Virus record (IMG/VR): IMGVR_UViG_3300040959_000195
Location: 1 to 21,117 of that record
Strand: one strand, 5' to 3'
Source of the DNA: a virus
Length of the DNA: 21,117 nt
The position numbers and the translations under genes were made by a program. Positions 9,350 to 20,213 of this stretch are shown one piece after another; position 1 is the stretch's first letter, and each line of letters starts with the position of its first letter. Below the pieces are notes generated by a model, which saw nothing but the letters and a program-made list of their open reading frames with translations, was not told the DNA's origin and did no database searches.

Positions 9350-9556
9350 ATGTTCTCAGGAATTATAGACTTTGTTATGGGAATTTGGAACCTATTGATG
9401 ATTGTCCCTGTGATAATCTCAATTTGTAGTGTTATAGTAGCACTTACACCTACCCCACACGATGATAAAGTATGGGCAAAAGTGTATAAATACTTGGAAG
9501 TTCTTGCTCTTGCAATTGGTAAGGCAAAGGACAAAAATCCATTATTGGATAAATAA
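9350..9556 (+). CDS. Small membrane protein (68 aa)
   Basis: Preceded by a strong GGAGGAAAGC Shine-Dalgarno. The N-terminal half is one or two hydrophobic segments (about residues 3-31, around WNLLMIVPVIISICSVIVAL), followed by a short cytoplasmic-type tail (DDKVWAKVYKYLEVLALAIGKAKDKN). Family unknown. It could be a holin-like or virion membrane protein, but nothing in the sequence decides that. A TAAATA late-type box overlaps its stop codon. Confidence 0.65.
   Translation: MFSGIIDFVMGIWNLLMIVPVIISICSVIVALTPTPHDDKVWAKVYKYLEVLALAIGKAKDKNPLLDK
9548..9555 (+). promoter_or_regulatory. TAAATA box, candidate late promoter
   Basis: GATAAATA, 25 nt before the ATG at 9581, matching T4 late TATAAATA at 7 of 8 positions. 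The stop of the preceding gene (TAA 9554-9556) overlaps it. Confidence 0.4.
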
Positions 9557-10238: not shown

Positions 10239-10532
10239 ATGGATTTCTTTGAATTTATAGGCGATGTCGGAACACCAATCGCAGGTGCGATAGTGATGGG
10301 TGTTTTTATCTTCATCGTTCTAAAACAGATTCTTGAGGGTATAGTGGATAACATTAAAACCCTAACAATGTTCTGTTCTTCATTAGAGAATAGAGCAAGA
10401 ACTATGTCAAATGAAATGATAAAAATTGATTTGTTAGTATCAAGCGCACTAGACTTGAGACCTGACATCGAAAGAATCTCTCGTGCAGAAAACTTTATCG
10501 AAGACGGTAAACTGGATGTGAGGAGAGACTAG
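10239..10532 (+). CDS. Small membrane protein with helical tail, copy 1 (97 aa)
   Basis: One transmembrane segment (about residues 12-33, around GAIVMGVFIFIVLKQIL) followed by a long charged helix. It resembles the gene at 10552: both begin MDF with an acidic residue close by, place a hydrophobic segment at 12-33, then a coiled-coil-like stretch with ARTMSNEMIKID here and TRMLDQDMIRLQ there. That similarity supports this ATG. It heads the chain leading to CsgF and CsgG, so a role in secretion or the envelope is possible; a holin-like role is an alternative. No Shine-Dalgarno. Confidence 0.65.
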   Translation: MDFFEFIGDVGTPIAGAIVMGVFIFIVLKQILEGIVDNIKTLTMFCSSLENRARTMSNEMIKIDLLVSSALDLRPDIERISRAENFIEDGKLDVRRD

Positions 10533-10551
10533 CGGAGAGGACACAAAGACA

Positions 10552-10863
10552 ATGGATTTTACTGAAATCGCACAAGTAGTCAAGGACTACGGATTTCCAG
10601 TTGTTATGAGTGTCGGTATGGGATACTTCATATACTTTATATGGAGTTTCATTTCTAATCAAATAGAACCTGAAATTGAGAAAATGCATATGGCGTTGAT
10701 ACGTGTTATTGACCAAACTCGTATGCTTGATCAGGACATGATTAGATTGCAACAAAAAGTGAACGTGGTTCTTGAGTACAGAAAACGTGATGAATTGATT
10801 GAAGAGGCGAAGGAAGATGAATTACTCAAGGAATATAAACAGAGGGAAAACACACATGAATGA
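10552..10863 (+). CDS. Small membrane protein with coiled-coil tail, copy 2 (103 aa)
   Basis: Likely paralogue of the previous gene: N-terminal transmembrane segment (about residues 14-33, around VVMSVGMGYFIYFIWSF) and a highly charged helical tail (EEAKEDELLKEYKQRE). AGAGGA lies upstream of the ATG. Its TGA overlaps the CsgF start by 8 nt, tying its translation to curli secretion. It does not look like CsgE, which is exported; a small inner-membrane organiser or a holin are both possible. Confidence 0.65.
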   Translation: MDFTEIAQVVKDYGFPVVMSVGMGYFIYFIWSFISNQIEPEIEKMHMALIRVIDQTRMLDQDMIRLQQKVNVVLEYRKRDELIEEAKEDELLKEYKQRENTHE

Positions 10864-11431
10864 TAGAGATTGGAAACTATTGAAATCACAAATGGGCCCA
10901 CAAATTTGGACAGGAAAAGATTTATTCATGCAGTTTGTGCTTGGAATTGTCATAGGAGTGTTTTTTACACTTCTTTTGTCAATGAATGCAAATGCAACTG
11001 AGATAGTACACAAGTTTAAAAACCCATCCTTTAGTGGGATAGGTACTGGTTCTCATTATCTCACGATTGAGAACCAAGAGCATTCTCGTAAGAAAACAAT
11101 AGAGGATGCTTTGGAGGCAGCACGTAAAGCTGCAGAACGTGAGGCAGATAACACTACACTTGCAAAGTTTATTAGAAACTTAGAGAGTAGAATTTATGCA
11201 CAGATGGCGAAACAACTTGTAGAGTCAATGTTTCAAAATGACAATCCAGTAAGGTTTGGTTCATTTGTGTTAGAAGGTTCAACGATAACGTATGAAGTGA
11301 TTACCAACGAAGACGGTACAGAGTATATTAAGATGACGATTGTTGCAGAAGATGGTTCAACAACAGAAATACAGATTCCAATTGGAACAGGATACTTTGG
11401 TAGTGACTATGGTACGACTACTGACGGTTAG
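10856..11431 (+). CDS. csgF: CsgF-like curli assembly protein
   Basis: 191 residues. A hydrophobic segment at about 25-43 and ANA at 45-47 look like a signal sequence behind an unusual 24-residue leader. The mature part begins with FKNPSFSG (54-61) and GSHYLTIENQ, matching the CsgF signature (FxNPSFGG and a following short motif). The final part, ITYEVITNEDGTEYIKMTIV, aligns in style with the C-terminal strand region of CsgF. In bacteria CsgF is secreted, caps the CsgG pore and couples fibre nucleation to secretion. ATG 10856 overlaps the preceding stop. The insert between the two conserved ends (a charged helix, about 80-130) is longer than in E. coli CsgF (138 aa in total). The start of csgG lies inside this gene, a 23-nt overlap. 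Confidence 0.8.
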   Translation: MNDRDWKLLKSQMGPQIWTGKDLFMQFVLGIVIGVFFTLLLSMNANATEIVHKFKNPSFSGIGTGSHYLTIENQEHSRKKTIEDALEAARKAAEREADNTTLAKFIRNLESRIYAQMAKQLVESMFQNDNPVRFGSFVLEGSTITYEVITNEDGTEYIKMTIVAEDGSTTEIQIPIGTGYFGSDYGTTTDG

Positions 11432-12302
11432 TCTAATATTTGGATTGCTATTAACATCATGTGCATCAGTCCCACAGTGGTCTGATAATCCTGCTGATTG
11501 CGCTTATGAAACTGGAAGGTTTGATGAGGGTTTCGGTAGAGATGTGGTTACAGGTGTTGCAAAACAAGTTACACGAAATTATATTTGTGTTGAGAGTCCA
11601 CACGTAGTAGACCTACCATCTTATTTACAATTATTAGATTTACCGCCTGCAGAAACAAAACCTGTAGTTGCAGTGTACAACTTTGCAGACTTAACAGGAC
11701 AAAGAAAGTACAGAGAGAATCTTGCAGATTTCTCAACTGCAGTTACACAAGGTAGTACTGCAATGTTAATCGATGCATTGAAAACTGCAGGAGGTGGAAC
11801 TTGGTTTAGAGTCGTAGAAAGACAAGGACTTGATAACCTAGTAAGAGAAAGACAGATTATTCGTTCTGCAAGACAAGAATATGCAGACGAAGAGTCACAA
11901 GGAATTGCACCCATGTTATTCGCAGGAATGATTATTGAGGGTGGAATAATTGGTTATGATACTAACATCGAATCAGGTGGACGAGGCGCACGGACACTTG
12001 GAATCGGATTTAGTAAACAGTATCGACAAGATATTGTTACAGTCTCAATCAGAGCAGTTTCTGTTTTGACTGGGGAGATATTATTAAACGTCCAAACTAC
12101 TAAAACAATTTTGTCATATGGTAGTGGGGGTGATGTGTTCAGGTTCGTTGAACAGGGAACACAATTAGTTGAATATGAAGACGGTGTGGGAAAAAACGAG
12201 TCTGTCACTTATGCAGTGCGAACTGCAATAGAGGCAGGAGTATTAGAAATAATTAATCAAGGCCACTCACGTGGTTATTGGAAAATAGAGGGAAGAGAAT
12301 AA
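11409..12302 (+). CDS. csgG: CsgG-like curli secretion channel (lipoprotein)
   Basis: 297 residues (E. coli CsgG 277). The N-terminus is a lipoprotein signal with lipobox LTSC, Cys at residue 18. The conserved body is visible: KPVVAVYNFADLTGQRK, the region around TAMLIDALK and WFRVVERQGLDNLVRERQI, GMIIEGGIIGYDTN and GGRGARTLGI, then VSIRAVSVLTGEILLNV. CsgG forms the nine-fold outer-membrane pore that exports curli subunits. Start chosen at ATG 11409 because it begins the lipoprotein signal; the frame is open further upstream only within csgF. The stop overlaps the curlin start (TAATG). An outer-membrane lipoprotein implies a Gram-negative host with a Lol-type sorting system. Confidence 0.9.
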   Translation: MVRLLTVSLIFGLLLTSCASVPQWSDNPADCAYETGRFDEGFGRDVVTGVAKQVTRNYICVESPHVVDLPSYLQLLDLPPAETKPVVAVYNFADLTGQRKYRENLADFSTAVTQGSTAMLIDALKTAGGGTWFRVVERQGLDNLVRERQIIRSARQEYADEESQGIAPMLFAGMIIEGGIIGYDTNIESGGRGARTLGIGFSKQYRQDIVTVSIRAVSVLTGEILLNVQTTKTILSYGSGGDVFRFVEQGTQLVEYEDGVGKNESVTYAVRTAIEAGVLEIINQGHSRGYWKIEGRE

Positions 12303-13027
12303 TGTTAAAATATTTATTAGGCCTAAGCATGTTATTTTCGTCTTTCATGTTCGCACAAGCGTCTGACGATAATGAGATTAATATTAGTCAAACTGGTGAC
12401 ACTTTGACACTATACATCGACCAAGTCGGTTATGGTAACAAAATTGGATTGGATGATTTTTCATCAAGTCCATCGGCAATGCCTATCACTGGTACTAGTT
12501 TAACTTTCGATATCGATCAGATTGGTAATAGTAATTTACTATATGGTACCCTTACTGCAAACTCCTCAACATATAACATGTTGTTTACTGGAGATTCAAA
12601 CGTATGGGATTGGTTGATTGGGGACACAGGAAGTTCTGACAGTTCTGCATTTGATGTTGACATCACAGGTAGTTCTAACACAATGGATTTAGACCAAGGA
12701 AGTTTGTTCCAAGCAGAAAGACTGGATTTTGATTTAACAGTTATAGGTGATTCAAACGTATTTGATGTTGACGTAGAAGCAGATGATGTTATTTGGAACT
12801 TTGATATTACAGGTGGTTCGAATAACTTCAAGACTTTACAAAAAGACGGTGCATATCAGGAAATCAATTTTACATTGAGTGGTGATAGTGCAGACGTAGA
12901 CATAAACCAATTAAGTGGTACATGTCCTACAGGAGTGTCTTCATGTAAAGGTATAATCACTTTGGATGTAACGAGTGACAATGCAACTATTCAAATCAAT
13001 CAGAAAGACTCAGCTAACGATTCTTAG
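12302..13027 (+). CDS. Curlin-like repeat protein (CsgA/CsgB type)
   Basis: 241 residues: a signal peptide (1-20, ending AQA) and then about eight imperfect repeats built on I/F-x-I/V-x-Q/T-x-G-x-S/G-N. Examples are ISQTGDTLTLYIDQVGYGN, FDIDQIGNSN, DITGSSN, LTVIGDSN and DITGGSN. That spacing of Gln, Gly and Asn is how curlin strands stack into a beta-solenoid amyloid. The protein is very acidic and its repeats are less regular than in E. coli CsgA, so it may be a minor or capping subunit. It begins on the csgG stop, and the next gene begins inside its last 47 nt, so the set is clearly one unit. Confidence 0.8.
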   Translation: MLKYLLGLSMLFSSFMFAQASDDNEINISQTGDTLTLYIDQVGYGNKIGLDDFSSSPSAMPITGTSLTFDIDQIGNSNLLYGTLTANSSTYNMLFTGDSNVWDWLIGDTGSSDSSAFDVDITGSSNTMDLDQGSLFQAERLDFDLTVIGDSNVFDVDVEADDVIWNFDITGGSNNFKTLQKDGAYQEINFTLSGDSADVDINQLSGTCPTGVSSCKGIITLDVTSDNATIQINQKDSANDS

Positions 13028-14126
13028 TATTGTACTTCTATCGGTGTCTGTTCATGCAGACACCATAGGAGACATAGTAGAGTCAACTGGAGTCGGTGCA
13101 ATCTTTCGTTCAAACGAAGAAATACCCTCATCTACCAATTTAGGAATCAACCTATACGATGAGGCAAAAACACAAAACGGTAGAATGCTCATTGAGTTTC
13201 TCGATGAAGAGGAACTTGCATTAACTGAACACACTATAGTGTACATCGATGAGGCATACTACGACCCTGACCCATCAAAATCTAAAATGGCAATTCGAAT
13301 GGCAAGGGGAACTGCACGATTCGCTTCAGGTGCAGGAAACAAAATCAAAAAAAGAAACATAAGTGTCACAACACCTACGGCACAGATTGCAATCAACGGA
13401 ACAGATTTTACAACAACCATAGATGAACTTGGACGTTCACTTGTGGTACTTTTGCCAGATGCATTTGGTGATGCATCAGGTGAAATAGTAGTGTCAAATG
13501 AAGGTGGTCAAGTAACACTTACAGAAGCATATTCTGCAACGATGGTATCGTCATTATCAACACCACCTACACCAACAGTCACAATACAAAATGTAACCCC
13601 CTCAATGATTGATAATATGTTCATTGTAAACCCACCTAAGGAGGTCTCAGATGCGATACAAGAACAGGCACAGGATGATTTAGACCAAGACCAAGGGTTA
13701 TTGGATGTAGATTTTTTAGAATTTAATGATTTAGAACAAGATGCATTAGAAGATACTGGAGGAGACTTAGAATACTCTGCATTAGATGTGGATTTCTTAG
13801 ATGTAGACTTCCTTGTTGACTTACTAGATGTAGTGGAAGAACTTGTAAAAACCACAAAACAACTTGCTGACCAACAAGAAACTTCAGGTGATTCAGGTGA
13901 GTTTGTTATCAAAGGTGCAAACTTTGGTAAGAACGATGATTCGCAGTATAATGTCTTCATCGAAGATGGTGGTATCGTCTTTTATCGTGATGTTAACGGT
14001 GTGATATCGTTAAAATTTGCAGCTGGTGCCAATATAACACTAGATACAATAGTTGATGGATATGAAGGTATCATCACCACAAATAGTGGAGATAGTATAG
14101 ATGTTAGGATACGTCAAGTTAACTAA
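12981..14126 (+). CDS. FecR-domain secreted protein
   Basis: 381 residues. A signal peptide (1-26, ending VHA) is followed by a FecR-type domain: IGDIVESTGVGAIFR, NGRMLIEFLDEEELALTEHT, MAIRMARGTARFASG, and VTTPTAQIAINGTDFTTTI are its usual landmarks. The second half is acidic with DVDFL repeats (about 250-285) and a C-terminal domain with a beta pattern (VFIEDGGIVFYRDVNGVIS). In bacteria, secreted FecR-domain proteins are often encoded beside CHASE2 adenylate cyclases, as here (742 nt downstream), so this may be the periplasmic partner of the cyclase. GTG 12975 is an alternative start; I prefer ATG 12981, which begins the signal peptide. It overlaps the curlin gene by 47 nt. Confidence 0.82.
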   Translation: MQLFKSIRKTQLTILSIVLLSVSVHADTIGDIVESTGVGAIFRSNEEIPSSTNLGINLYDEAKTQNGRMLIEFLDEEELALTEHTIVYIDEAYYDPDPSKSKMAIRMARGTARFASGAGNKIKKRNISVTTPTAQIAINGTDFTTTIDELGRSLVVLLPDAFGDASGEIVVSNEGGQVTLTEAYSATMVSSLSTPPTPTVTIQNVTPSMIDNMFIVNPPKEVSDAIQEQAQDDLDQDQGLLDVDFLEFNDLEQDALEDTGGDLEYSALDVDFLDVDFLVDLLDVVEELVKTTKQLADQQETSGDSGEFVIKGANFGKNDDSQYNVFIEDGGIVFYRDVNGVISLKFAAGANITLDTIVDGYEGIITTNSGDSIDVRIRQVN

Positions 14127-14129
14127 ATA
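14122..14129 (+). promoter_or_regulatory. TAAATA box, candidate late promoter
   Basis: ACTAAATA contains the FecR gene's stop codon (14124-14126) and lies 29 nt before the ATG at 14159, the same distance as the box before 17052. Confidence 0.38.
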
Positions 14130-14158
14130 TAATACCTAACCAATATGGAGGAAAAGGT

Positions 14159-14308
14159 ATGTTAAAACACCTAGGAAAACTCCGTGACTTGCATGAGGAC
14201 AGATTGTTCTCAATTCAAAAGTCACTAAGACTGGATGACTACCACATGATGTGGATTGCATTCGGAAAAGGAGTTCTAGTCGGTATGTTTTTGCTATGGA
14301 TATTTTAA
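14159..14308 (+). CDS. Small membrane protein (49 aa)
   Basis: GGAGGAAAAGG precedes the ATG, one of the strongest Shine-Dalgarno sequences in the window. The product starts with a charged helix (MLKHLGKLRDLHEDRLF) and ends with a transmembrane segment (about residues 32-49, around FGKGVLVGMFLLWIF). It overlaps the second curlin-like gene by 13 nt. Its place between FecR, curlin and cyclase genes suggests it belongs to the same envelope system. Confidence 0.6.
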   Translation: MLKHLGKLRDLHEDRLFSIQKSLRLDDYHMMWIAFGKGVLVGMFLLWIF

Positions 14309-14868
14309 ATAATAAAAAAACTAAGGATAAACCACTCTTAATCATAGGGTGGTTAATCCTACTCTCATATTGTTCAGTTGCATTCGCAGATGACAATACT
14401 ATAACAATAGAGCAGATAGGTTCTAGTAGTCACGTCTATGTTAGAATTACTCAAGAAGGTTTCGACAATCTTATCACAACTCAATATGACGGAAGTGGAA
14501 TGTACATTGACTTCAATCAATTTGGTAATGGAAATGTAATGAACGCAAACATTAAAGGAAATAGCAATCAAGTTATAGGTCAACAATTTGGTGAAGATAC
14601 TCATACAATTAACATAGATGGCGATTTCAATCTTGCAGGAACCTATTACGGCACAAGTCAAAACAATAATTTGACAATTAATCTTTTGGGTGACGATAAC
14701 TTTGGGGCAATAGAGGCAAGAGGTAGTGGTGGTCATACAGGAACTTTAAATTTAGAAAATGGTGCAAGGGTACAAGTATTCATTGATACTTTAATACCTG
14801 ATACGTTTTCTATATCACAGTATTGTGCAACACCACCTTGTGGTACTTCAACAATCACTCGAAACTAA
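14296..14868 (+). CDS. Second curlin-like secreted repeat protein
   Basis: 190 residues. A signal peptide (about 1-31, basic start, core LLIIGWLILLSYC, ending AFA) is followed by repeats of the curlin type: ITIEQIGSSSHVYVRITQ, IDFNQFGNGN, ANIKGNSNQVIGQQFG, NIDGDFN and INLLGDDN. The Q-x-G-x-x-N spacing is closer to canonical curlin than in the 12302 gene. A C-terminal segment has two Cys (QYCATPPCGTS) that might form a disulphide; the 12302 protein also has a C-x(8)-C pair near its end. ATG 14296 was chosen as the start of the signal sequence. The stop overlaps the cyclase start (TAATG). Confidence 0.75.
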   Translation: MDILNNKKTKDKPLLIIGWLILLSYCSVAFADDNTITIEQIGSSSHVYVRITQEGFDNLITTQYDGSGMYIDFNQFGNGNVMNANIKGNSNQVIGQQFGEDTHTINIDGDFNLAGTYYGTSQNNNLTINLLGDDNFGAIEARGSGGHTGTLNLENGARVQVFIDTLIPDTFSISQYCATPPCGTSTITRN

Positions 14869-16709
14869 TGTACTCTTGGAAGACAGTCTTAATTACAATA
14901 GGACTTCTAGTCGGACTCAAAATTTGGAATCCATACATTGTAGAAAACATCCAATGGTCATGGTTCGATTTCTTACACCAACAACAAGAAAAGATTACAA
15001 GTGATGATATTGTCTTAGTAGACATTGACGAAAGGTCACTAGAAGAGTTCGGACAATATCCATTCAAGAGAGGTATCTACACTGATTTACTTCTTAACTC
15101 TCATTACACTAACACTCATGTGTTTACACAACTCTTTGCAAAACCTGATAGACAACCTGAGGAAGATTTAAAACTTGCAGAGGGACTAATCAACAGACTT
15201 ACGATTTTATCTGCAGCTCCATCTGCACAAATACAAAAAGGTTCTGCACCATTTGTTAACACTTCAGTGTTCGGTGGTGGGGATATAAAAAATTCTGCGT
15301 GGAATTTTACAGGAATCGTTGCACCTCTTCCTATCTTACAAGAGAACACATACGGTGTAGGAGTCACAACTGCAACTCCACCATTTAGTGGTACACCAAA
15401 CTTTGACGGAACAGTGCGTAGTGCGCCGTTGATTGTTACTGCAAACGATGAGATTTACCCATCGATAGTGTTAGAAGTGTTACGTGCATATTACGACCAA
15501 CCAAATTATCAGACAAGAGTCACAGAAGACGTAGGTATTGAATGGATTCGTATGGGGAGAGAAGACCCTATAGAAACGACTCCAACAGGAGACATATTAA
15601 TCTCCTATTGGAATCACTTTGAGAGAATCTCAGCAGTTGACCTTACGCAGTCAGATATTCAGGATAAGATTCTAATTTGGGGTCTAACGGCAGAGGGTCT
15701 GAATAATCCAGTTTCAACTCCAGTGGGTACAATGTATCCCCACGAAGTTCAAGCCTCAATTCTCCAAACCGTCTTACAAGAAGTTCAAATACAACAATCC
15801 TACTATCTTGAATTTCTAGAAATTGTTCTTCTTCTGTCAGTCCTTCTAATGACGTTGGTAATGGTCTACAAACTTCCCACAACTCTTGGGGTGTTAGGTT
15901 GTCTAAGTGTTGTAGGATTTCAGGTGGGTGGGGGTTTATATTTGTGGACTTCAAGTCTCGTTCTTTTCGATACCTTCTACTCATCTATCGCCTCCTTGAT
16001 AGTTTTCGGTCACGCATCATATAATCAATACTATAAGACTTATCAACTCAAGGAACAGATTAGAAAACAGTTCCAAAAGTATTTATCTCCTGACATGGTC
16101 AAACAATTACAGGACAATCCTGATATGTTAGTGTTGGGTGGTGAGAGAAAAGAAATGACATTTTTGTTCATGGACATTTGTGGATTTACTCCAGTGTCAG
16201 AATACTACAAAAACAACAATGACCCTGAAGGTTTAGTCGAACTTATTAATAAATACTTAGACACAATGACCAAAATTATACTTGCAAATGGTGGAACCAT
16301 CGACAAGTATATGGGAGATTGTATCATGGCGTTTTGGAATGCTCCCTTAGACTGTGAAAATCACGCAGGTATGGCAGTTAAATCTGCAAGGGAAATTTCA
16401 GAAAAAGCAGATGAACTTATCACAGAACTTGAAGAGATGGGTCTTCCTAGGATTGATGTTGGTATCGGTATCAACACAGGCGAATGCATTGTCGGAAACA
16501 TGGGGTCAGAACTTAGATTTGACTATTCCGTCATTGGAGACGCCGTCAACTTGGCATCTAGACTCGAAGGACAAACTCGCAATTATGATGGGGTACGAGT
16601 GTTGTTATCATCCACAACTGCTGGAAAGTGTCAAGATGGATTCTTTACAAAAGTCGATTCGATTAAAGTTAAAGGAAAATCCGAATCAATTGAGGTCTAT
16701 ACCCTTTGA
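14868..16709 (+). CDS. CHASE2-domain class III adenylate/guanylate cyclase
   Basis: 613 residues, membrane-bound. Layout: one N-terminal transmembrane helix (about 5-22), a periplasmic CHASE2 sensor domain (about 35-310, starting VLVDIDERSLEEFGQYPF), a block of transmembrane helices (about 320-395), a short linker, and a C-terminal class III cyclase domain (about 425-613). The catalytic set appears complete: metal-binding D436 (FMDICGF) and D484 (KYMGDC), purine-site K480 with S554 in the Asp/Thr position (YSVIGDAVN), and transition-state N561 and R565 (VNLASR). K plus Ser/Thr favours ATP over GTP, so cAMP is the likely product. It starts on the curlin stop (TAATG), so it is part of the curli/FecR unit. 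A 74-nt overlap with the next gene lies at its end. Confidence 0.9.
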   Translation: MYSWKTVLITIGLLVGLKIWNPYIVENIQWSWFDFLHQQQEKITSDDIVLVDIDERSLEEFGQYPFKRGIYTDLLLNSHYTNTHVFTQLFAKPDRQPEEDLKLAEGLINRLTILSAAPSAQIQKGSAPFVNTSVFGGGDIKNSAWNFTGIVAPLPILQENTYGVGVTTATPPFSGTPNFDGTVRSAPLIVTANDEIYPSIVLEVLRAYYDQPNYQTRVTEDVGIEWIRMGREDPIETTPTGDILISYWNHFERISAVDLTQSDIQDKILIWGLTAEGLNNPVSTPVGTMYPHEVQASILQTVLQEVQIQQSYYLEFLEIVLLLSVLLMTLVMVYKLPTTLGVLGCLSVVGFQVGGGLYLWTSSLVLFDTFYSSIASLIVFGHASYNQYYKTYQLKEQIRKQFQKYLSPDMVKQLQDNPDMLVLGGERKEMTFLFMDICGFTPVSEYYKNNNDPEGLVELINKYLDTMTKIILANGGTIDKYMGDCIMAFWNAPLDCENHAGMAVKSAREISEKADELITELEEMGLPRIDVGIGINTGECIVGNMGSELRFDYSVIGDAVNLASRLEGQTRNYDGVRVLLSSTTAGKCQDGFFTKVDSIKVKGKSESIEVYTL

Positions 16710-17019
16710 TTCAAGACCACGTGTAGACAAATACACAATGTCTGCATTTTGGTTATTACAATTTGCAGATGTTTGGACAACTGACAGAGGGATGGATTAT
16801 GATTGTATCTTTGAAGCAAATCCCCTTTTACCTGAAGTACCTAGTTTTAATAGACTGATATTACACAAGACATTACTTTTATCACCATTCTATGCTCTAG
16901 AAGAAGAAGGCACACTTACATATGGAGATATGTTTCTACCCTTTGTGATGACTGCATACGTAGTACATAATAACTTACAGGTAATTGACCGTGCATCACA
17001 ACGTTGTAAAAAACGATAA
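16636..17019 (+). CDS. Hypothetical, probably membrane-associated protein (127 aa)
   Basis: Unrecognised, though FWLLQFADVWTTDRGMDYD, EANPLLP and the following hydrophobic stretch (HKTLLLSPFYAL) loosely recall small multi-helix membrane proteins of the DUF5658 sort. I favour ATG 16636, preceded by GGAAAG, which overlaps the cyclase end by 74 nt; ATG 16738 (MSAFWLL, 93 aa) avoids the overlap but has no Shine-Dalgarno. The frame is also open further back inside the cyclase gene, but that part is a shadow. A TAAATA late-type box overlaps its stop. Confidence 0.55.
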   Translation: MDSLQKSIRLKLKENPNQLRSIPFDSRPRVDKYTMSAFWLLQFADVWTTDRGMDYDCIFEANPLLPEVPSFNRLILHKTLLLSPFYALEEEGTLTYGDMFLPFVMTAYVVHNNLQVIDRASQRCKKR

Positions 17020-17522: not shown

Positions 17523-17583
17523 AGTAGTGCATATGCGAATAATCGGTATGCACTATTTTAACTTGCTTAATAAAGGAGAAAAT

Positions 17584-18003
17584 ATGACTATCTTTGATGA
17601 TATCTATGGGAGATCATTCCCATTCGCAATTGGGTTCGACAGAACTCTTCAACTGTTAGAGAAGGCTGCAACAGTCCCATCTAATGTTTCCTATCCACCT
17701 TACAACATTGTTAAGATTGACGATGAATCTTACAGTGTAGAACTTGCAGTCGCAGGATTCAAGAAAGACGAAATCTCAATCTCAAAAGAGGCAGAGACTT
17801 TGACTATTGAAGGTAAAATAGATTCTAAGGAAGAAAAAGAGTTCGTTCATAAAGGACTTGCTTCTCGTTCATTCAAAAGAACTTTCACACTCGCAGAAGA
17901 AATTGTTGTAGAGGGTGCAAAACTTGAGGATGGTATTTTAAGTGTTTCACTTAAGAGAGTAATTCCTGAAGAAAAGAAACCAGTTTCTATCAAAATTTCT
18001 TAA
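17584..18003 (+). CDS. hsp20: Small heat-shock protein Hsp20 (IbpA-like)
   Basis: 139 residues with the alpha-crystallin domain. Landmarks are YPPYNIVKIDDESYSVELAV, GFKKDEISI, GLASRSFKRTFTL, and the closing LEDGILSVSLKRVIPEEKKP; SIKI at the end supplies the I-x-I motif that docks subunits. It would hold unfolding proteins, and Hsp20 genes are a common feature of marine T4-like phages. ATG 17584 follows AAAGGAGAAA; the frame is open further upstream but without a comparable start. It has its own sigma70-like promoter and is followed at once by the peroxiredoxin promoter. Confidence 0.92.
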   Translation: MTIFDDIYGRSFPFAIGFDRTLQLLEKAATVPSNVSYPPYNIVKIDDESYSVELAVAGFKKDEISISKEAETLTIEGKIDSKEEKEFVHKGLASRSFKRTFTLAEEIVVEGAKLEDGILSVSLKRVIPEEKKPVSIKIS

Positions 18004-18011
18004 AAAACCCC

Positions 18012-18049
18012 TAGACAGGACGTTACCCCTTGTTGTATAATGAGGGGTA
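18012..18049 (+). promoter_or_regulatory. Peroxiredoxin promoter with the -10 box in a hairpin loop
   Basis: TAGACA (18012-18017), an 18-nt spacer and TATAAT (18036-18041). The -10 falls in the 12-nt loop of a perfect 7-bp inverted repeat, TACCCCT (18024-18030) with AGGGGTA (18043-18049). The arrangement parallels the element at 18590, but no T-run follows, so termination is less likely here. Confidence 0.6.
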
Positions 18050-18070
18050 TACATAACCTAGGAGTATATT

Positions 18071-18574
18071 ATGTTTAACCCTGAAATAGGTACACAAGTA
18101 CCTGACGTTATTCTACCTATCAGAGTTGCAGGTGAGTGGCAGAATCTGAGTACTGGTGCCCAGTTTGCAGGAAAAAGAGTAGTGTTGTTTGGATTGCCAG
18201 GCGCATTTACCCCAACCTGTTCAACTAACCAAGTACCAGCATTTGATAAACTTGCTGACCAATTCTTTGCAAAAGGTATTAACGAAATTTATTGTGTATC
18301 AGTAAATGATACATTTGCAATGAACAAGTGGTTTGAAGATTTAAGAGTTCAGAACATCTTCCCATTACCTGATGGTAACGGAGAGTTCACAGAACTATTT
18401 GGTGCATCCGTACAGAAAGCAAATCTAGGATTTGGTATCAGGTCTTGGAGATATGCAGTTGTACTGAATGATGGTAAAGTAGAGAAAGTATTCTCAGAGG
18501 AAGGTTTTGGTGATAACATCGAGACTGACCCATATGAGGTATCTACACCTGAGAATGTATTAGCAAATCTCTAA
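18071..18574 (+). CDS. Peroxiredoxin, Prx5 type
   Basis: 167 residues, normal length for the Prx5 group. The peroxidatic site PGAFTPTCS is intact with Cys at residue 50, and the distal Arg appears in GIRSWRYAVVLNDG. GAFTPTCS rather than DFTFVCPT points to Prx5 and not AhpC. It would reduce hydrogen peroxide or organic peroxides using a host thiol donor. AGGAG precedes the ATG, and it has its own promoter and terminator, so it is a single-gene unit beside hsp20; together they suggest a stress-protection function during infection. Confidence 0.92.
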   Translation: MFNPEIGTQVPDVILPIRVAGEWQNLSTGAQFAGKRVVLFGLPGAFTPTCSTNQVPAFDKLADQFFAKGINEIYCVSVNDTFAMNKWFEDLRVQNIFPLPDGNGEFTELFGASVQKANLGFGIRSWRYAVVLNDGKVEKVFSEEGFGDNIETDPYEVSTPENVLANL

Positions 18575-18636: not shown

Positions 18637-19749
18637 ATGGAACTAACTAAACAAGACACAATTCAAGTTGCAACGAAAGTTATGGAATACTTCCATGACT
18701 TTAATCGTATTGATGATTATTTTCGTGTAAGAAAAATTGAAAGGGTGAAGGACTTACCTGCACCACTGCTTGGTTTTGGACTTGAAGATGACATGTTCCA
18801 ACAACATGATATGCATCCTATGGACATGAATTTTGAAGTTGCAAAACTTCCTAATGAAACCTTTGATGCAATGATTGAAAAGGTTGCATCATTTTCACCT
18901 GATGAAAATCCAGGCAAGACTTTAAAACTTGTGGTGAAAGAAACCAACACTAATACTGTAGTTGGGTTCATTCGTTTTGGTTCACCACTAATTAACTCAA
19001 AACCACGTAATGATTATCTTGGTCAGACACCTGACTTAGACATCTTCAACAAACGTGCAATCATGGGATTTAATATTGTCCCTGTACAACCATTCGGATT
19101 TAATTATCTTGGTGGTAAACTTCTTGCGGCTGTGTGTTGTTCTCATGCAAGTCGTAGAATGTTAAATGAAAAATATAATACAGAGTTTTGTTTATTTGAA
19201 ACTACATCTTTGTATGGTAACATCAAAGGTGCAAGTATGTACGATGGTATGAGACCGTATCTAAGATATAAAGGAGATACACAAAGTCAATTTCTTCTGA
19301 CACTTGGCGAAGAGATATACTTTGAATTAAGAGATTGGTTTGAAACACGAAATGATAGCGAACCATTGATTCATAAAGGTGCATCATCACGTAAACTTAA
19401 AATGCAGACTAAGATGGTGGGTATCATTAAGTCAAATCTTAAAAAATATGACACCACTGCATATGAACACTTTTGTAAAGTGATGAATACTGCACAAGAT
19501 GTAACGACACAGAAACGATTCTACATGTCAGAGTATGGTTACACAAATGTACGTGATGTATTATTGGGTAAAACAGAAACGCTAAATAAAGCTGAGAACT
19601 TTGATAGATTTGAATTTGAAAATGTCATTGCATGGTGGAAGAAACATGCATCAAAAAGATATGACAATATTAAACAACAAGGTAGACTGAGAACAGAGTT
19701 AGAAGTATGGAATCAGGAAACCATGAACAAGATAGATATAATAAGATGA
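18637..19749 (+). CDS. DruA/DUF4338-like protein
   Basis: 370 residues. The central part resembles the DUF4338 (DruA) family: VVGFIRFGSPL, KRAIMGFNIVPVQPFGFNYL, GGKLLAAVCCSHASRRML, YNTEFCLFETTSLYG and KGASMYDGMRPY occupy the places of that family's conserved strand and helix motifs. DruA is a component of the bacterial Druantia anti-phage system; its molecular activity is not settled. A homologue in a phage could counter other phages, modify DNA or act on something unrelated. The C-terminal 130 residues (from about 240) are basic and helical. No Shine-Dalgarno is clear before the ATG. The gene ends in an ATGA overlap with the nucleotidyltransferase. The family call is from memory of motifs, so moderate. 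Confidence 0.5.
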   Translation: MELTKQDTIQVATKVMEYFHDFNRIDDYFRVRKIERVKDLPAPLLGFGLEDDMFQQHDMHPMDMNFEVAKLPNETFDAMIEKVASFSPDENPGKTLKLVVKETNTNTVVGFIRFGSPLINSKPRNDYLGQTPDLDIFNKRAIMGFNIVPVQPFGFNYLGGKLLAAVCCSHASRRMLNEKYNTEFCLFETTSLYGNIKGASMYDGMRPYLRYKGDTQSQFLLTLGEEIYFELRDWFETRNDSEPLIHKGASSRKLKMQTKMVGIIKSNLKKYDTTAYEHFCKVMNTAQDVTTQKRFYMSEYGYTNVRDVLLGKTETLNKAENFDRFEFENVIAWWKKHASKRYDNIKQQGRLRTELEVWNQETMNKIDIIR

Positions 19750-20138
19750 CAATAGGATTTACATGTGGTGCATTTGACCTCTTACATGCAGGTCATGTGG
19801 TTATGTTAAAACAGGCAAAAGAAAACTGTGACCATCTTATTGTAGGATTACAGACAGACCCATCTATCGACAGACAAGAAAAGAATCAACCAGTACAATC
19901 TGTCTACGAGAGATTTGTACAATTAAATGCAGTGAAATATGTAGACGAAGTGATACCATATGACACTGAACAAAGTCTATTAGACTTGCTTGAGTCGACA
20001 CCTATAGATGTTAGATTTGTAGGTGAAGACTATAAAGACAAACACTTCACAGGTGAGGAACTACCGATTAAAGTGTTCTACACTAACAGAAAACATTCAT
20101 TTTCAACATCATCGTTGAGGGATAGAATTAAGTTATAA
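19746..20138 (+). CDS. Cytidylyltransferase-like nucleotidyltransferase (TagD/RfaE-C type)
   Basis: 130 residues, the length of TagD. Signature motifs: GFTCGAFDLLHAGHVVMLKQ (HxGH is HAGH) and, near the end, NRKHSFSTSSLRDRI, the counterpart of the RTEGISTT motif. Enzymes of this type join CTP or ATP to glycerol-3-phosphate, a heptose phosphate or a similar compound, making an activated sugar or polyol. The glycosyltransferase downstream could use such a product. ATG 19746 overlaps the preceding TGA (ATGA); an in-frame ATG at 19707 lies within the preceding gene and is less likely. The actual substrate cannot be told. Confidence 0.88.
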   Translation: MTIGFTCGAFDLLHAGHVVMLKQAKENCDHLIVGLQTDPSIDRQEKNQPVQSVYERFVQLNAVKYVDEVIPYDTEQSLLDLLESTPIDVRFVGEDYKDKHFTGEELPIKVFYTNRKHSFSTSSLRDRIKL

Positions 20139-20213
20139 GCGGATATAGTATAACGGTTATTACTCCTGTTTACCAAACAGGGAATGTGAGTTCGATTCTC
20201 ACTATCCGCTCCA
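20139..20213 (+). tRNA. tRNA-Gly, anticodon ACC
   Basis: Complete cloverleaf with encoded CCA. Acceptor GCGGATA pairs with TATCCGC; D arm GTA with TAC and GG in the loop; anticodon stem CCTGT with ACAGG, loop TTACCAA, anticodon ACC at 20172-20174; T arm GTGAG with CTCAC around TTCGATT; discriminator T73, then CCA. C35, C36 and U73 fit glycine identity. A34 is unusual, since bacterial glycine tRNAs carry GCC, UCC or CCC. GGT is common among glycine codons in these genes, matching ACC. Confidence 0.93.

Follow-up and report, generated by a model that had tools for sequence, protein, structure and literature searches.

A conserved curli-type secretion module with FecR and CHASE2 cyclase genes in a likely SAR11 phage and its chromosomal counterparts in Alphaproteobacteria

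Gene content and order of the locus

The stretch of DNA analysed here (the window) is a viral record of 21 kb, in which the genes of a curli-type module all lie on the + strand, each separated from the next by a short gap or overlapping it. Domains were assigned with Pfam and PHROGs, and start codons were placed from signal peptides and ORF openings. The module begins with two paralogous small membrane proteins (SMPs) that both match phrog_18771, namely SMP1 (10239..10532, 97 aa, with a single transmembrane segment and an amphipathic C-terminal part; named 'HK' in the literature) and SMP2 (10552..10863, 103 aa). These are followed by a CsgF-like protein (10856..11431; PF10614, E = 9e-16), with a probable ATG at 10856 in an ORF that opens at 10799, and by the CsgG outer-membrane pore lipoprotein (11409..12302; PF03783, E = 1e-53), whose ATG at 11409 and lipobox LLTSC were likewise assigned from the sequence. 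Curlin 1 (12302..13027), a curlin-like fibre subunit with a signal peptide, precedes the FecR-domain protein (12981..14126), which consists of a signal peptide, a FecR domain (PF04773, 5e-9), an acidic linker and curlin-type C-terminal strands. A second curlin-like subunit with a signal peptide, curlin 2 (14296..14868, with the ATG placed at 14296 in an ORF of 14251-14868), and a membrane-bound CHASE2 class III nucleotide cyclase of 613 aa (14868..16709; PF05226, 2e-30; PF00211, 8e-18) complete the module. A DUF5658-like membrane protein (16411..17019; E = 0.0023, below the cut-off) is a conserved neighbour downstream of the cyclase. Pfam and PHROGs bear out the CsgF, CsgG, FecR and cyclase genes of the initial annotation; its third small membrane protein was not recovered, as the interval holds only the two paralogues, with further candidates lying outside it at 9350-9556 and in the DUF5658-like ORF ending at 17019.

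The module is preceded by genes of T4-like replication, which encode the sliding clamp and subunits of the clamp loader. The closest phage record of the clamp loader is that of SAR11 phage HTVC008M (62%), which makes SAR11 the likely host of this T4-like phage. On the 3' side, the window encodes an Hsp20, a peroxiredoxin, a nucleotidyltransferase of the heptose/cytidylyl type and a tRNA-Gly (17527-18574 and 19707-20213).

The curlin signal in the two putative fibre subunits is weak. Curlin 1 gave a sub-threshold match to the Pfam curlin repeat (0.002), and curlin 2 essentially none (0.56). AlphaFold predicts curlin 1 to be an all-beta repeat protein (pLDDT 80, pTM 0.75), and both proteins belong to families that occupy the same position in related loci. 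Since a fold search of the curlin 1 model against the PDB returned no significant match, the assignment as curlins rests on the weak repeat matches, synteny and the model. Comparison with a close relative, L005, revealed that curlin 2 has been replaced exactly (window 14391-14875 versus L005 12977-14017), the sequence being ~97% identical on either side. At the protein level, the two curlin 2 sequences are 36% identical, compared with ~98% for CsgG, curlin 1, FecR and the cyclase. Similar swaps of curlin 2 were found between L035 and L036 and between L042 and L044, a pattern that points to selection acting on a fibre subunit that is displayed. Separately, 77 nt at the start of csgF (window 10877-10953) are missing in L005, so the N terminus of CsgF varies.

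In common with E. coli csgBAC-csgDEFG, the window encodes a CsgG pore, CsgF and putative curlin-type repeat subunits, but it differs in having FecR and the CHASE2 cyclase in addition, and in that CsgE was not found and no module protein matched CsgC or CsgD in the Pfam domain search. A CsgE gate is found in model curli systems, although not in all of them. Its absence, noted in the initial annotation, was upheld by a PF10627 profile search, which was negative in the window, HTVC008M, five related viral contigs and three bacterial genomes. CsgE has also been published as missing from pelagiphage modules.

Conservation in phages and in alphaproteobacterial chromosomes

Curli genes of marine T4-like phages have been reported before, as the initial annotation noted; those of pelagimyophages were published in 2020 (PMC7029224), and those of Melnitz, a phage of OM43, followed in 2022 (PMC9004378). 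In the same year, Wittmers et al. (2022; PMC9599517) described HK, CsgF, CsgG, CsgA/B, FecR, CsgA/B and adenylate cyclase in SAR11 podo- and myophages, and viral curli proteins together with FecR were present at 65/65 GOV2.0 stations, with evidence of expression (PMC9599517). The window fits their layout, HK(1-2)-F-G-CsgA/B-FecR-(CsgA/B)-AC. Because the same module, including FecR and the adenylate cyclase, was described there, the finding counts as already known, and the coupling of curli genes to a FecR/cyclase pair is not new, contrary to the initial annotation; the GenBank record of Melnitz annotates it as well. The locus belongs to the type VIII secretion (curli) module known from pelagiphages; it is real, conserved and already described. 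While the layout is identical to the published one, our reading departs from it in that the 'HK' lacks a kinase domain and FecR is reinterpreted as a curlin-tailed envelope protein, and we add chromosomal counterparts.

A CsgG scan of viral contigs yielded 69 loci. Of those with sufficient length to reveal the gene order, the majority have S-S-F-G-c-R-c-A (small proteins, CsgF, CsgG, curlin 1, FecR, curlin 2, cyclase). The small membrane proteins are missing from a more distant group (L064-L071), whose order is F-G-c-R-c-A; in two of its members, L067 and L069, curlin 2 is enlarged to 734 aa. Among cultured phages, HTVC008M (KC465899, 7.2-13.8 kb) matches the window gene for gene, differing in a CsgG that is only ~50% identical and in a longer second curlin (441 aa), and the methylophage Melnitz (MZ577097) has the same order according to both a profile search and the annotation of its record. 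The gene order, whose conservation the initial annotation proposed to test, is shared by dozens of independent viral contigs and two cultured phages. This recurrence, together with the shared arrangement of the near-identical contigs L003-L006, rules out that bacterial and phage sequences were joined in assembly, a possibility for which we found no support and which we regard as practically negligible.

A scan of bacterial genomes identified three alphaproteobacterial loci with F-G-c(-c)-R-A, i.e., csgF, csgG, one or more curlins, FecR and a CHASE2 cyclase. Two are in Caulobacteraceae MAGs (L078 and L079) and one is on a 705-kb contig of Hyphomonas sp. TMED17 (L080), all three genomes being metagenome-assembled. 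In L078 and L080, the operon is flanked by ordinary bacterial genes, namely those for a TonB receptor, a fumarylacetoacetate hydrolase, an acyl-CoA dehydrogenase and an amidohydrolase. Further MAG loci (L072-L077, L081-L085 and L096) were left out of this count, as their high identity to viral loci or their phage-only small membrane proteins led us to read them as binned phage contigs. The three operons contradict the published statement that bacterial type VIII secretion operons exclude FecR and the cyclase. They are rare, the full-length FecR family being confined to the seed genome among 299 genomes of the order of L080 and 249 of the order of L078. In a CsgG tree, the chromosomal loci cluster with the phage loci, apart from the other sampled bacterial CsgG proteins (94/99, just below the star threshold); the branches inside this group are weak (88/88, 87/53), so the tree does not distinguish donor from recipient.

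The small membrane proteins, FecR and the cyclase

The SMP family comprises proteins of ~97 aa, mostly with one transmembrane segment. In a separate scan, csgF/csgG were found beside it in 77/77 informative loci, and the three chromosomal operons are without it. The published histidine kinase assignment was rejected for this family, given its size, the lack of any HisKA/HATPase match in 14 members and the lack of a conserved phosphoacceptor His in the alignment, where the commonest His column reaches 31%. Matches of the SMPs to PHROG holins were weak (0.05 and 0.78).

In the FecR-domain protein, the FecR domain follows directly on the signal peptide, and the protein therefore lacks the cytoplasmic part of FecR anti-sigma regulators; no such N-terminal region was seen in the sequence, the alignment or the model. 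At the opposite end, the motif [VIL]x[VIL]xQx0-3$ closes 34/35 distinct FecR proteins and 32/37 second curlins, compared with 0/334 background ORFs (other ORFs, each of at least 150 aa), although, the sequences being related, these counts do not stand for independent events. The motif is absent from the chromosomal FecR protein of Hyphomonas. AlphaFold modelled the FecR domain with a pLDDT of ~85-90 and placed six strands ~10 residues apart at the C terminus, the tail being moderately confident (pLDDT ~55-75, lower at the very end). Foldseek matched the model to FecR-type signalling domains (the PupR cell-surface signalling domain and BDI_1681) and, more weakly, to a cell-surface anchoring domain (5ix9). 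From these observations we infer a FecR domain joined to a curlin-type tail, which looks like a fibre-linked envelope protein rather than an iron regulator.

FecR and CHASE2 proteins are also neighbours outside curli loci, as the initial annotation had stated. In Caulobacterales FecR loci (L194-L203), a CHASE2 protein lies within ~3 kb in 9 of 10, two of which match the CHASE2 part only, and the pairing has been described in a cyclase cluster of Campylobacterota (PMC9239204) and in a biofilm operon of Burkholderia (PMC5192318). As in the window, these pairs encode a secreted FecR-domain protein beside a CHASE2 sensor; they differ in lacking curli genes, in matching the FecR-domain part only (Caulobacterales) and in a fusion of FecR to LysM (Burkholderia). 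This recurrence supports FecR as a partner of CHASE2. In diverse other Alphaproteobacteria (L183-L193 and L204-L213), large predicted proteins of up to several thousand residues contain the FecR domain and may be surface proteins.

The cyclase combines CHASE2 with the full set of class III catalytic residues (D436, K480, D484, N561 and R565 in the window). Across the aligned cyclases, the metal-binding Asp pair and the Arg are conserved in 43/43, the Lys in 42/43 and the Asn in 36/43, and activity is therefore expected. A link of the module to cAMP signalling is thus biochemically plausible. Recognised receptors are scarce: a cNMP-binding domain was found in only 5 of 118 genomes of the family to which a Candidatus Pelagibacter MAG belongs, many of them possibly incomplete, and in none of 11 phage records, some of which are fragments. 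Each of the genomes with a chromosomal operon has 4-7 matches. Class III cyclase domains were detected in 3/118 SAR11-family genomes, in one case on the contig of the seed genome that carries the module.

The DUF5658-like ORF (16411-17019) shares ~300 nt with the 3' end of the cyclase gene, read in a different frame, and its start, which resembles a signal peptide, lies within the part encoding the catalytic domain. Across 20 loci, divergence at fourfold sites of the cyclase is lowest in this overlap (0.35, versus 0.50 immediately before it), which suggests that the overprinted gene is real. The homologue in L053 begins at the end of the cyclase.

A putative fibre sensor and its alternatives

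Taken together, we favour an explanation in which the curli pore exports a curlin fibre and FecR links it to the CHASE2 cyclase as a sensor, to which we assign a probability of roughly 55%. CsgG and CsgF would form an outer-membrane pore that exports the two curlin-like subunits, and, judging by the homology of the genes, the infected cell may display a short amyloid-type fibre. The FecR protein would be secreted into the envelope, where its FecR domain probably touches CHASE2, the domain of the cyclase that lies in the periplasm, and its curlin-type tail would join it to the pore or the fibre, so that it would serve as an anchor, cap or reporter of assembly. The cyclase would then produce cAMP according to fibre export, with the SMPs as putative phage-specific partners in the inner membrane. 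Points against this explanation are the weak curlin signal and the missing PDB match of the curlin 1 model, the moderate model of the FecR tail, the scarcity of recognised cAMP-binding domains, the lack of CsgE and the Hyphomonas FecR, whose tail motif is absent. Against a fibre, moreover, Melnitz-infected cultures of OM43 showed neither fibres nor clumping (PMC9004378).

The last observation bears on a reading, proposed for Melnitz from structure models and the lack of clumping (PMC9004378), in which phage CsgG and CsgF serve as an outer-membrane channel put to new use, in lysis timing or in the uptake of solutes, and the presence of the curlin genes is incidental. Without CsgE, the pore may indeed be ungated. 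However, viral loci retain curlin 1, and in most cases curlin 2, beside the pore genes, the repeated swapping of curlin 2 argues for its use, and, while the text of the Melnitz paper gives the fibre genes as absent (PMC9004378), two curlin-repeat proteins are annotated in the GenBank record of this phage, along with FecR and the cyclase. We therefore consider a pore without a fibre possible, but unlikely. Still less probable, in our view, is that cAMP from the cyclase modulates the infected cell in general, independently of any fibre and by way of an effector that has no cNMP-binding domain. The conserved catalytic residues would suit such a role, and a receptor of the CRP type is unnecessary if the effector is of another kind; yet the cyclase shares one operon with FecR and the curlins in phages and on three bacterial chromosomes, and the FecR-CHASE2 pairing is found again elsewhere. 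It is also improbable, to a slightly greater degree, that FecR and the cyclase control transcription of the curli genes, with FecR responding to iron (the reading of PMC9599517). The similarity of the FecR domain to the signalling domain of anti-sigma regulators (PupR, BDI_1681) favours regulation, but the protein begins with a signal peptide in place of an anti-sigma region and ends in a curlin-like C terminus, no FecI-type sigma factor or CsgD is among the domain matches of the operon, and few SAR11 genomes and none of the tested phages have a recognised cAMP-binding domain.

Within the fibre-sensing explanation, it is tempting to speculate that the FecR-curlin hybrid reports amyloid assembly: its tail would be exported or captured by the fibre, its FecR domain would act as a ligand of CHASE2, and cAMP would report the status of the fibre. 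Such an ancestral alphaproteobacterial checkpoint could have been taken over by phages whose hosts have no recognised cAMP receptor. We put this scenario forward as a doubtful possibility.

Beyond the known module, our analysis adds a better reading of FecR and a bacterial counterpart, and it questions two published annotations, those of FecR as an iron regulator and of the small upstream proteins as histidine kinases. Among phages of SAR11, bacteria that are some of the most abundant in the ocean, curli modules are widespread, and a putative role of the phage module in remodelling the surface of the infected cell is plausible. The curlin-type tail of FecR, the FecR–CHASE2 pairs outside curli and the chromosomal operon together lead to a testable mechanism, in which the cyclase would sense the assembly of the fibre.
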